Assembly (NCBI RefSeq): GCF_000316645.1
Contig: NC_019684.1
Span: 5,901,501 to 5,965,500 of the forward strand
Source of the DNA: Nostoc sp. PCC 7524
GTDB lineage: Bacteria; Cyanobacteriota; Cyanobacteriia; Cyanobacteriales; Nostocaceae
Direction: 5' to 3'
Length of the DNA: 64,000 bases
The translations under genes were made by a program, and so were the position numbers. The notes under the pieces were generated by a model. That model was not told the DNA's origin and made no database searches. It saw only the letters and a list, made by a program, of their open reading frames with translations. How positions within the stretch are numbered: position 1 is the first letter of the stretch; the number at the start of each line of letters is the position of its first letter. Shown piece by piece: positions 12,262 through 15,390 of the stretch.

Positions 12262-12636
12262 ATGGATGAAGATGAGGACATTCTAGAAATTCCTTTACGA
12301 CCTCTGGTTTGGATGGGAGACTCTCTCAAAAATATCCGTTCATTTCCTGAAGAGGTGCGTGCATCAGTAGGTTACGCGCTGCAATTGGTTCAAGCAGGGG
12401 AAACACCAACGGATGCCAAACTTTTTAAGGGGGTTGGAAGTGGCGTGTATGAAATCGTTAAACGCTACGATACCGATACTTACAGGGCTGTTTATGCAGT
12501 AAAGATTGGAGAAAAAATCTATGTTCTGCACGCTTTTCAAAAGAAATCAACGCGGGGTATTAAAACTCCACAAGCGGATGTTGACCTGATTAAACAACGC
12601 TATAAGGATGCAGTAGCAAGGGAGAAACAAGAGTGA
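12262..12636 (+). CDS. higB: HigB-like toxin (phage Gp49-type, RelE superfamily)
   Basis: 124-residue member of the RelE/HigB toxin superfamily, expected to be a ribosome-dependent mRNA interferase. Features are the helix region SFPEEVRASVGYALQLVQAG, the basic strand GVYEIVKRYDTDTYRAVYAV and the C-terminal FQKKSTRGIKTPQADVDLI, matching the Gp49-like family. Toxin precedes antitoxin, as in higBA loci. The downstream gene overlaps its stop by four bases. Activity is inferred from family membership. Confidence 0.9.
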   Translation: MDEDEDILEIPLRPLVWMGDSLKNIRSFPEEVRASVGYALQLVQAGETPTDAKLFKGVGSGVYEIVKRYDTDTYRAVYAVKIGEKIYVLHAFQKKSTRGIKTPQADVDLIKQRYKDAVAREKQE

Positions 12637-12959
12637 CACAAGAACCCGTTTTTGAAGAAAGCAATGGTAACGTATTCGCTGACCTTGGGTTATCAGATGC
12701 AGATGAACTGTTTACGCGGGGTAAGATAGGTATTCAGGTACTGCGCCTTTTGAAACAACGCAACTTGAAACAACGAGAAATCAGCGAACTTCTTGGTATT
12801 TCCCAGCCAGAAGTATCTCATCTTATGAAGGGAGAGTTTCAACGGTTCAGCGAAGGCAAACTCCTGATTTTCCTGAAGCGACTTGATACAGAAATCACTT
12901 TACATCTTCGCCCCCGTCACGCACCAGAGCAATCTGCTGAAACTGTGATATCGCTATAA
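12633..12959 (+). CDS. higA: HigA-like antitoxin, XRE-type helix-turn-helix
   Basis: 108-residue antitoxin partner of the upstream HigB-like toxin. It contains an HTH_37/XRE DNA-binding domain, with the helix-turn-helix at about residues 49-66 (QREISELLGISQPEVSHLMKG). Such antitoxins neutralise the toxin and usually repress their own operon. The start is GTG at 12633, overlapping the toxin stop, so the pair is translationally coupled. An acidic N-terminal arm likely contacts the toxin. Confidence 0.91.
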   Translation: MTQEPVFEESNGNVFADLGLSDADELFTRGKIGIQVLRLLKQRNLKQREISELLGISQPEVSHLMKGEFQRFSEGKLLIFLKRLDTEITLHLRPRHAPEQSAETVISL

Positions 12960-13074: not shown

Positions 13075-14502
13075 TTAACCCACAACTTCTGGCACTAATC
13101 GCTTCACCCCTTGCTTCACAAAACCTTGCAGAAAAGCTAACTGCTGATTTTGTTGGAAGACATTTTGTAAGGTTTGACGCAATTTATCTAAATTCAAATT
13201 ATTACCAGAATCTAAAGCAATTTCTTGCTGTTCAAAATATGCAATTAGACTCAAGCCAGCGACTCTAGTCAGATAAGCTGCACTCACACCTTGCACTAAA
13301 CCACCAGCGACAAAGGTAACAGCGTTACTTTTGAGAACTGTACTAATAGCTTTAGTCGAAAGTTCCACTAAACCTAATTTCAGCATCAAACTTCCCATTG
13401 TTCCCGCTACAGTTTGCGCTTGTTCTAGGGAGAATTTCTGCTGATAGATATTACCCAAATCCATTACCATTTGAGCATTAATCGCCGCCGTTGCCAAAAT
13501 ATCCAGTGCTGGAACTGGGTTAGCAAAAGCAGCAGCCGCAGCTATCCACTGATATTGTTCAATAATTGGGGTAGCGCGATCGCATCTCACCCCATTCAAA
13601 TAATTTTTCGCCTCAGCTTTCAACAGCAGAGCCTGTCTAGTAGTAGTTGTCCACACCAATTGTTGACTTTGCTGTACTAAAATCTCATTCAATTGCTGTG
13701 TCAACTGCTGAATATCTGCTGCTGGCTGTTCCATCCATTCTTGCACATTCCCATCAGCCTGATGTTTCCGCACTTTCACCGCCACAGGAGCAGCTGAAAC
13801 CGCGACTACATGATCCTGCTGACGTTGTTTTAATGACTGCAAAATACTAGCACGCTCATCAGGCAAATATTGGTCTTGTTTGTTGAAAACTAAGACTTGT
13901 GGCTGATTAGTTGCTGTTAACTGTTTTAAGGCTTGAAATTCCGAATCAGTTAAATCACCGTTAGTTAAGAACAAAACTAAGTCTGATTTTGCTGTTTCTG
14001 TGAGAATAGCCGCATCAGAGGATTCTACCTCTCGAAACAAAGGTGCTGTTTCTTGGAAGCTAACTCTTTGCTGTGTTTCTTGCCAATTACTAGACTCTAG
14101 CACCTGAATTAAGGTACTTTTACCAACGAATTTACCGCCAGTGACAGCTAATCTCAAATCTTGTCTGTCTAACTCTACAGGTAATGCGGCTAGCTGTGTT
14201 TTCAGTGTGTCTAAAGCTGGATGGGTTGCAGCTTCTTGCGCTAACTGATTAATCACAACTTCAGTTTTAGCGATCGCATTCACTGCTGTTTCCCGATCAG
14301 TAATGATACCACTCGGTTGTTCTGCATGGTCATGGGGGAAGTTACGCTTCCACAGCCACAAACCACCACCTACAGCTAAGAGACTGACTAAACTTAGCTC
14401 ACCTACCTGCATAATTGAATGATGCCAACTTTGCACCATCCATAAGGAAAAGGATAATCCTAATCCTCCTATTAAAATGGGTCGCTGTAACTTCACAACC
14501 AT
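13075..14502 (-). CDS. Membrane GTPase, DUF697 (YcjF-like) family
   Basis: 475-residue protein with two N-terminal hydrophobic segments (residues about 8-25 and 33-51), then a Ras-like G domain and a C-terminal hydrophobic DUF697 region. The P-loop GGKFVGKST lies at 122-130, and NKQD, which gives guanine specificity, at 207-210. The C-terminal part has alternating hydrophobic stretches from about residue 315. The family is common in cyanobacteria but its job is unknown; relatives are linked to envelope stress. ATG 14502 overlaps the end of the upstream endonuclease pseudogene by ten bases and has GGAGAG as ribosome site. Confidence 0.85.
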   Translation of the reverse strand: MVVKLQRPILIGGLGLSFSLWMVQSWHHSIMQVGELSLVSLLAVGGGLWLWKRNFPHDHAEQPSGIITDRETAVNAIAKTEVVINQLAQEAATHPALDTLKTQLAALPVELDRQDLRLAVTGGKFVGKSTLIQVLESSNWQETQQRVSFQETAPLFREVESSDAAILTETAKSDLVLFLTNGDLTDSEFQALKQLTATNQPQVLVFNKQDQYLPDERASILQSLKQRQQDHVVAVSAAPVAVKVRKHQADGNVQEWMEQPAADIQQLTQQLNEILVQQSQQLVWTTTTRQALLLKAEAKNYLNGVRCDRATPIIEQYQWIAAAAAFANPVPALDILATAAINAQMVMDLGNIYQQKFSLEQAQTVAGTMGSLMLKLGLVELSTKAISTVLKSNAVTFVAGGLVQGVSAAYLTRVAGLSLIAYFEQQEIALDSGNNLNLDKLRQTLQNVFQQNQQLAFLQGFVKQGVKRLVPEVVG

Positions 14503-14991
14503 GACTCTCCGAACTTTTTGGAATATTCCAACTCAACAATAAACCAAAACCCTGCTGCACCGACTTGTAAAGGTAAGATTAACTCCCAAGCCTCACGATA
14601 TTTTGCCGAACGGGGTTGACGCTGGCGTTTTTCGGTTTCGACAAGGTGTATTTCGCTACCATAGCTGATAAACACATCTACCGGAAAGACATAGAAAACA
14701 TCAAGTGGTTCTATGTAGGCTAGGGCAAAATCAAAGTCTGATGGTTGATATGTTGCTCTAAGCATGAGTCGGCGATTTGTTTTAGTGCGGCGATTGTCTA
14801 CAACATAATTACCAGATGGCTCATGCAACCAAGCATACTTGACTTGGATTTTAACTAAAGTTCCCTCTATATCAAATACTAAATCGTATGGCAGGCGATC
14901 GCCAATTGTGTTTTAAAACTCCCCAGCCACGCTTTAAAGCATGAAGCACAGCAGCTTGCTCTGCTATGTCTCCCCTCAGCTTTGTGTCCAT
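14493..14991 (-). pseudogene. Frameshifted PD-(D/E)XK endonuclease, I-Ssp6803I-like
   Basis: Group I intron-associated PD-(D/E)XK endonuclease family gene broken by one frameshift. From ATG 14991 the frame reads MDTKLRGDIAEQAAVLHALK and GWGVLK, then loses phase at about 14909. The second frame continues IGDRLPYDLVFDIEG, TLVKIQVKYAWLH and 100 further residues to 14493. Deleting one T at plus-strand 14909 restores GVLKPIGDRLPYD and a 165-residue frame. The Asp in LPYDLVFD and the QVK triad fit a PD-(D/E)XK active site with Gln replacing Glu. It lies about 80 bases beyond the 3' end of the intron-bearing tRNA gene, on the same strand. A sequencing error is the alternative to true decay. Confidence 0.85.
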
Positions 14992-15025
14992 TGGTCAGAC
15001 GGAATAACTTATATCAGCATAAAAC

Positions 15026-15060
15026 AAAACCCCATAATCTTTAAAGATTACAGGGTTTTA
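15026..15060 (-). terminator. Rho-independent terminator after tRNA-fMet
   Basis: Long near-perfect inverted repeat pairing AAAACCCC with GGGTTTT and TAATCTT with AAGATTA. Read on the minus strand it follows the tRNA CCA end by ten bases and runs into GTTTTGTTTT. It would end the tRNA transcript before the endonuclease pseudogene. Confidence 0.85.
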
Positions 15061-15069
15061 TTTTAAATT

Positions 15070-15390
15070 TGGTGGCGGGAAGTGGATTTGAACCACTGAC
15101 CTTCGGGTTATGCTTACCATCTACAACTTTCGTTGCCCAGTTTTACTGGTTTGTGGTCTGGACTGTCCCTTCACCCTCGGCGTTATCGTTAGGGTGCCTG
15201 CCTTCCAGTCTCTACACCTTCTCTGTTTCCAGAGCTTGGTTCGGGATTACCGCGCTGTTGGCTTCCCCGAGTTTGACAGGTAATCGCACATGAGTTTCTC
15301 CATGTACCGCCCACTGCAAAACAAACTAATAAGCGCGTAATTAGTTTTGCTAGTTGAGCCCGACGAGCTACCAGGCTGCTCTATCCCGCG
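15070..15390 (-). tRNA. Initiator tRNA-Met(CAU) interrupted by a group I intron
   Basis: The 5' half (15390-15357) and 3' half (15112-15070) join to a 77-nt tRNA with a CAU anticodon and an encoded CCA end. Initiator hallmarks are visible. Bases 1 and 72 do not pair (C opposite C), the anticodon stem has three consecutive G-C pairs (GGG with CCC), and the D-loop is the AGCAGCCUGGUAGCUCGUC type. The T-arm is AGUGG-UUCAAAU-CCACU. The halves are separated by 244 bases inserted between U33 and C34. A strong terminator follows. Cyanobacterial fMet tRNA genes with group I introns are documented, notably in Synechocystis. Confidence 0.95.
15113..15356 (-). ncRNA. Group I self-splicing intron in tRNA-fMet
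   Basis: 244-nt intron. The preceding exon base is U33 and the last intron base is G, as group I splicing requires; no other placement gives both. A candidate internal guide AGUGGGC (plus 15309-15315) pairs with exon GCU and places a U-G wobble at the 5' splice site. P7 forms between GACUG (15206-15210) and CAGUC (15161-15165). A P2-like hairpin GCAAAAC...GUUUUGC follows the 5' end. A Q-like AAUCCCGAACC is also present. There is no ORF inside. Confidence 0.9.

Follow-up and report, generated by a model that had tools for sequence, protein, structure and literature searches.

An initiator tRNA gene split by a group I intron in Nostoc sp. PCC 7524, beside a broken homing endonuclease gene that appears to have left the intron

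Prediction of tRNA genes in the window (the whole 64,000-nt stretch of Nostoc sp. PCC 7524 DNA analyzed here) with ARAGORN, allowing introns of 0-400 nt, revealed a tRNA-Met(cat) on the minus strand (15390-15070), interrupted by a 244-nt intron between gggct and cataa; when introns are disallowed, ARAGORN finds no tRNA in the window. The 5' exon (15357..15390, minus strand) ends at U33 (GGGCU) and is identical in intronless relatives, while the 3' exon (15070..15112, minus strand; CAUAACCC...CCA) includes an encoded CCA. Joined, the exons match the uninterrupted gene letter for letter in 4 of the 4 intronless same-genus loci checked. The original prediction of an initiator tRNA-Met split by a 244-nt group I intron, with halves that join to a complete fMet tRNA, is thus confirmed by ARAGORN, which joins the halves at the junction claimed, by the intronless relatives, and by covariation among 33 introns. 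The predicted splice junction after U33, with an intron ending in G, is borne out by ARAGORN and the fold alignment. Because intron and 3' exon both start with CA, splicing after U33, C34 or A35 would give the same product; the latter two positions were rejected, since only U33 gives an exon-end U paired with G together with an intron-final G. Downstream, a terminator-like hairpin with a T-rich tail (15026..15059, minus strand), recognized by eye and also found at empty sites, separates the tRNA from the cassette described below; it is not picked up by a simple consensus terminator scan. Rfam matches at ~15000-15105 (CopA, ohsC, trpB, Yfr10 and others) fall on this hairpin, all under their cut-offs, and were discarded.

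Exon-pattern, anticodon-region and tRNA-Met checks of the genome revealed no second initiator tRNA gene. A 16-nt exon pattern has one exact match in the genome, the other matches carrying 2-3 mismatches at chance level; the uninterrupted anticodon region is absent from this genome in a search allowing ≤1 mismatch; and the tRNA-Met on contig C1, part of an array of 20 tRNA genes, has no GGG/CCC anticodon stem. The group I intron sits in the sole initiator tRNA gene found.

The intron (15113..15356, minus strand) contains no ORF and matches the whole RF00028 (Intron_gpI) model at 15340-15143 (minus strand) with 44.6 bits (E 2.9e-10 with 461 nt searched, E 1.0e-9 in a whole-genome search). Since the gathering score is 50, a default Rfam scan calls no intron here; the covariance-model check proposed with the original prediction thus yields a full-length match, but one that fails if the curated cut-off is strictly applied. 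The fold was independently assessed by comparison, in an alignment (A2) of 33 related introns with their flanking exon ends, from which RNAalifold predicts P1, P2, P4, P5, P6a, P7, P8 and P9; P3 and P6 were added by hand before pairs were counted. Paired cells amount to 98.9% of this alignment versus 94.2% in shuffles and 34-42% with slid partners, and two-sided changes occur in 23 of 67 pairs (shuffled mean 14.3, 0 of 500 shuffles as high), while the number of further pair types in the 33 introns (49) is not above shuffles (mean 50.0).

The internal guide segment UGGGC (15309..15313, minus strand) forms P1 with the 5' exon end and the first intron bases (A2 pairs 8-12/55-59), and its G at 15311 is the wobble partner of U33 (15357), a U-G pair present in 33 of 33 introns, as anticipated. 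The anticipated P7 pairing (5' strand GACUG at 15206..15210, minus strand; partner CAGUC at 15161-15165) is likewise recovered by RNAalifold and is invariant in 33 of 33, so that it shows no covariation. P3 (5' strand CUGUC at 15275..15279, minus strand; partner GGCAG at 15198-15202) has one compensatory pair, C-G being replaced by U-A in 2 of 33 rows. P7, P4/P5 and all P1 pairs but one are invariant, and covariation there says nothing for or against them. The P1 U-G pair at the 5' splice site, the P3/P7 pseudoknot, P4-P9 and the terminal G together place the intron in group I; introns of this group in tRNA genes are usually classed as subgroup IC3. P10 could form at the 3' junction, because intron and 3' exon both begin with CA. 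Another RNAalifold helix joins UUAC, close to P3, to GUAA at the intron 3' end (A2 columns 85-88 with 262-265) and is kept in 32-33 of 33 rows; the next pair beyond competes with P3. The genome has a second group I intron, of 277 nt, in tRNA-Leu(UAA) (G000:C2:1858537-1858800, L001; RF00028, 88.7 bits).

A broken homing endonuclease gene of the I-Ssp6803I type lies outside the intron, 78 nt 3' of the tRNA, in a decayed 469-nt cassette (14550..15018, minus strand) placed between the hairpin and the leader of a GTPase gene by comparison with five same-genus empty sites. Its N-terminal piece (14911..14991, minus strand), corresponding in frame A to residues 1-27 of a relative, matches PF11645 with E 1.2e-5 and 25.8 bits (cut-off 26.1) and PDB 2ost_A with E 2e-7. 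The remainder (14493..14912, minus strand) continues in another frame, matching residues 27-140 before a shortened tail and a read-through past the usual stop; it matches PF11645 (PDDEXK_5) with E 8.9e-40 and 136.3 bits, well above the same cut-off, and PDB 2ost_A with E 2.3e-52. PDB 2ost, named "Putative endonuclease" in the match table, we take to be the structure of I-Ssp6803I, a PD-(D/E)XK enzyme to whose sequence family both pieces belong. Annotators recognize the family, as the database entry "group I intron-associated PD-(D/E)XK endonuclease" shows, and a one-frame protein in the protein database (P0003) is 98% identical over 88% of the long piece.

The frameshift leaves no single ORF able to make the enzyme, in contrast to the one-frame relatives. 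The tail is in addition ~11 codons short, a deletion shared with near relatives, and the usual stop has been lost. The frameshift could in principle be an assembly error; the missing stop is a further lesion. The claim that this copy has no internal ORF therefore holds for the intron itself but was incomplete, as a decayed I-Ssp6803I-type gene lies just outside, and with an ORF-less 244-nt intron and its nuclease gene 3' of the tRNA the locus is not a mobile intron of the internal-endonuclease kind.

Comparison within the genus revealed the intron in 6 of 13 genomes and its absence in 7. In five of the intronless genomes the tRNA and hairpin are followed directly by TTTGATCTATTC, and the GTPase gene starts 143 nt from the 3' exon start; in five intron-bearing genomes the cassette occupies that point and the GTPase start lies 581-668 nt away. 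The intronless G009 and G010 retain the 3' part of the endonuclease gene, including the tail deletion seen in the window copy, remnants that we interpret as scars of past occupancy. On a tree of the upstream asparaginase (13 rows: 12 from the genus and one outsider) the intron label needs three changes, and the intron-bearing G005 groups with the intronless G002 and G006 (100/100). In 10 of 10 same-genus pairs the introns are more similar than the flanks, a difference that ribozyme constraint alone might explain.

A scan of genome contigs gave 107 confirmed loci, the best 80 of which were kept. Among these best 80 of 107, the endonuclease gene lies inside the fMet intron in 43 (seven of these calls resting on intron overlap, with the 3' exon unmatched) and beyond the tRNA's 3' end, next to an ORF-less intron, in 35; the other two comprise one gene 5' of the tRNA and one unclassified. 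In the 35 flanking loci the distance to the tRNA is 45-130 nt in 30 and 236-2082 nt in five, and the intron, of 240-311 nt, is kept in all 35. The record titles of the inside copies span many phyla; most are metagenome bins, and single labels may be wrong. The reading frames of inside copies start ~16-35 nt downstream of the 5' exon, in the interval separating the two P1 strands, in agreement with Synechocystis PCC 6803, whose endonuclease ORF is described as lying inside the intron, in P1, with a 61-nt overlap with P1/P2 (PMC3073962). Unlike in Synechocystis, the window intron is ORF-less with the gene outside, and unlike I-Ssp6803I the window copy is free-standing and broken.

Individual loci depart from the common arrangements: two tandem endonuclease copies, the second partial, lie 3' of tRNA-fMet in L041:4001-4720, and the gene is 5', not 3', of an intron-bearing tRNA-fMet in L054:766-1188. 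A flanking arrangement also occurs in Arcicella aurantiaca (Bacteroidota; L084), whose tree neighbor is an inside copy titled Saprospiraceae. As to carriers of the endonuclease, no plasmid match was obtained, and no relative was found among 51 pattern matches in viral contigs. Four phage records match it at 30-35% identity; phages of other hosts with distant relatives are MF988720, KY549443 (same phage as NC_047796) and MZ501103.

The direction of movement can be read from the C-terminal tails. In many free-standing endonucleases of the main clade, the last 15-25 residues resemble a translation of the intron segment that spans the 3' side of P1 through P4 (PVQFGEAGF, for example, compares with PVKLGEAN of the translated intron), and inside copies often read through the same intron core. 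The genome's tRNA-Leu intron, too short to hold an endonuclease gene, has by eye a matching core stretch, so the sequence matched by the tails is ribozyme sequence. Tails could be tested at 24 of the 35 flanking loci, the other 11 having a tail of <12 residues or no anchor motif. At the protein level, an intron-only profile scored 17 of 24 tails above 99% of shuffles; at the DNA level, 18 of 24 scored higher than 99% of both shuffles and control windows taken from the same genes, all 18 in one frame; seven (protein) and six (DNA) of the 24 were not above control. Single-locus tests, which are less powerful than the profile tests, reached a level of ≤3 of 300 shuffles for 10 of the 24 tails. 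In most intron-tailed free-standing genes the final codon and stop (TTT TGA) derive from the flank at the 3' junction. Since most free-standing tails tested derive from the intron core, the nuclease gene appears to have moved from inside the intron to the outside.

In a tree of 81 endonuclease rows, from which three broken genes were left out and whose midpoint root is uninformative on direction, 32 flanking rows form one clade (support 98/93) and the inside/outside label needs four changes. The AU test does not reject a single flanking clade (p 0.273, or p 0.435 with cyanobacteria only). We accordingly dropped the claim that the nuclease escaped several times independently, and one to four escapes from the intron are possible. 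The leaders of free-standing genes, inspected by eye, did not clearly show any remnant of the 5' exon or of the start of the intron; such a remnant would have pointed to tandem tRNA duplication.

The linkage of intron and nuclease was examined in a family sample of 192 genomes, 191 of which have an fMet match: 42 with the whole intron and 149 of exon length only (here "intronless"; in 22 of 22 such stretches examined the target proved to be uninterrupted). Near-full-length endonuclease genes, defined as one frame of ≥132 residues starting from residue 9 or before, occur in 31 of 42 intron-bearing versus 0 of 149 intronless genomes (Fisher p 9e-27, a statistic that ignores kinship); all 31 are thus accompanied by the intron. 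Nine of the 31 are flagged with a stop, which lies at or after residue ~140 in six and is not seen in the aligned part of one; the remaining two are interrupted in the nuclease part (G417 at ~residue 128, G523 at ~residue 12). Four more intron-bearing genomes, including that of the window, have frameshifted or truncated pieces, and seven of the 42 have no piece at E 1e-6, among them G463, with only a distant paralogue (35%). A search for the uninterrupted target (≤1 mismatch) detected it in none of the 42 intron-bearing genomes, of which one is only 54% complete, and in 5 of 5 intronless controls.

Among the intronless family genomes, 12 of 149 harbor endonuclease fragments. In every one of the 12, a fragment lies 55 nt-2.2 kb 3' of the tRNA on the same strand, and the retrieved stretch contains a single uninterrupted target; an additional piece occurs on another contig in both G500 and G487, and a more sensitive search revealed short pieces at 2 of 10 other intronless loci. 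Scars are a minority, 137 of 149 having no fragment at E 1e-6, and these genomes were either never invaded or have been cleaned up. Seven of the 12 scar-bearing genomes belong to genus g187 (G489, G500, G510, G519, G525, G534 and G536); two other genomes of this genus, G531 and G539, bear the intron together with near-full-length genes. In a phylum sample of 339 genomes, the endonuclease was found in 16, of which 14 have the intron (seven flanking near-full-length, two flanking broken, five inside) and two are intronless with C-terminal fragments only; the family, order and phylum samples share genomes. Of the genomes with an fMet match, 16 of 118 in the order sample (120 genomes) and 42 of 191 in the family sample have the intron, in keeping with the original description of introns in cyanobacterial tRNA-fMet as sporadic.

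The nuclease part of the free-standing genes has a median dN/dS of 0.088 over 295 overlapping, non-independent pairs (inside copies: 0.11, 6 pairs), and tail dN is higher than nuclease-part dN in 23 of 24 listed pairs with a tail value. This pattern indicates purifying selection on the nuclease part, so the protein would long have been useful to something. Endonuclease divergence tracks that of the flanking genes (r 0.86 and 0.82 over 60 rows, in which the same genomes from two collections are included), a pattern better matched by prolonged vertical inheritance with losses than by frequent transfer. A partial Mantel correlation between intron and endonuclease beyond both flanks (r 0.27, 0 of 2000 permutations as high) was given no weight, as the 60 rows contain duplicated genomes.

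We consider it likely that a ribozyme sits in the sole initiator gene found, that its partner nuclease of the I-Ssp6803I family left the intron, that the intron shields the nuclease's target, and that the window has kept the intron while its nuclease is broken. The guide segment would pair with the end of the 5' exon through the U33-G wobble, and the intron would excise itself and join the exons. The PD-(D/E)XK endonuclease gene, once inside the intron, would have been relocated with a piece of the intron core as its C-terminal tail, usually to a site 45-130 nt 3' of the tRNA and here to the nearby position in the window. A live nuclease is expected to cut intronless tRNA-fMet DNA, and repair from the donor would copy intron, 3' exon and adjoining endonuclease gene together. 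Such trans-homing is the simplest reading of why the free-standing gene persists, and its position and linkage fit a collaborative homing pair.

Because the intron alone would hide the donor's own initiator gene from the nuclease, loss of the intron while the enzyme is alive should carry a penalty, and the intron would not easily be lost until the nuclease is dead. This order of loss is suggested by the occurrence of broken nucleases with the intron, near-full-length nucleases without it not being seen; the window would represent a stage midway to loss. For the Nostocales more generally, we lean toward a scenario in which the endonuclease gene left the intron with translated ribozyme core as its C-terminus and persisted under selection, intron and nuclease forming an addiction-like pair in which the intron alone shields the sole initiator gene, the intron being lost only after the death of the nuclease and scars being left at some intronless loci.

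Several alternatives bear on this proposal. That the split tRNA is a dead gene, with another initiator tRNA serving the cell, is hardly credible: standard tRNA finding does overlook the split gene, but the genome yielded no other initiator gene, the exons are identical to the gene of intronless relatives, and compensatory changes in relatives keep the intron fold. The nuclease might conversely have begun as a free-standing gene next to tRNA-fMet and invaded the intron later, an order (free-standing gene first, intron second) proposed for two phage cases of collaborative homing (PMC3984707) and on which the midpoint-rooted tree is silent. We regard it as improbable here, given that most tested free-standing tails match the ribozyme core in one frame and that the flanking rows form one well-supported clade, the inside copies being titled from many phyla.

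It is also conceivable, if unlikely, that the free-standing nuclease no longer acts on the locus in any of these genomes and is co-inherited with the intron merely as a neighbor. Such passive co-inheritance would account for an endonuclease divergence that follows the flanks and for the 11 of 42 intron-bearing genomes in which the gene is lacking (seven) or frameshifted or truncated (four); against it stand the low dN/dS of the nuclease part and the census, in which no intronless genome has a near-full-length gene beside an open target and 12 of 149 have fragments.

Group I introns in cyanobacterial tRNA-fMet were reportedly described by Biniszkiewicz et al. in 1994, and those introns resemble that of the window in gene, group I class, anticodon-loop insertion and patchy occurrence. 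The homing cycle of gain, decay and loss attributed to Goddard and Burt is said to comprise invasion, nuclease decay and precise loss, as here; unlike in that cycle, a nuclease scar may remain after intron loss, and since a scar can outlast the intron, the order of events becomes readable. Both tRNA-fMet group I introns and I-Ssp6803I are already known cases in the literature, and the fMet gene of Nodularia spumigena CCY9414 is reported as intron-free (PMC3610870). Collaborative (trans) homing, with a free-standing endonuclease and an ORF-less group I intron at one site, has been described for two phages (PMC3984707). The present locus shares with it the ORF-less intron, the separate endonuclease gene and, presumably, a target at the intron site, but differs in lying on a bacterial chromosome, in a tRNA gene, and in carrying sequence evidence for movement from inside to outside. 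Introns and trans-homing are known, whereas for a free-standing nuclease beside the fMet intron no print report was found among the matches listed from the open-licence literature.

The coming together of endonucleases and group I introns has often been argued to start from the free-standing gene (PMC3984707). Here, one endonuclease family shows both arrangements in many genomes, a sequence fossil reveals movement from inside to outside, and natural loci represent every stage: the full pair, the intron beside a broken nuclease, the lone intron, the lone scar and the empty site. The gain-decay-loss cycle of selfish introns thereby becomes testable on a bacterial chromosome and in an essential tRNA gene, and the life and death of such genetic parasites become easier to read from genome sequence.

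Lastly, two further features were noted. The tRNA array mentioned above (L153; G000:C1:1-8000) lies on a 77-kb contig and includes a tRNA with anticodon CTA that ARAGORN names Pyl; tRNA arrays of this kind occur in Anabaena. Within the window, positions 12262-12959 (plus strand) encode a Gp49-like protein (PF05973) together with an HTH_37 protein, a make-up typical of toxin-antitoxin pairs.
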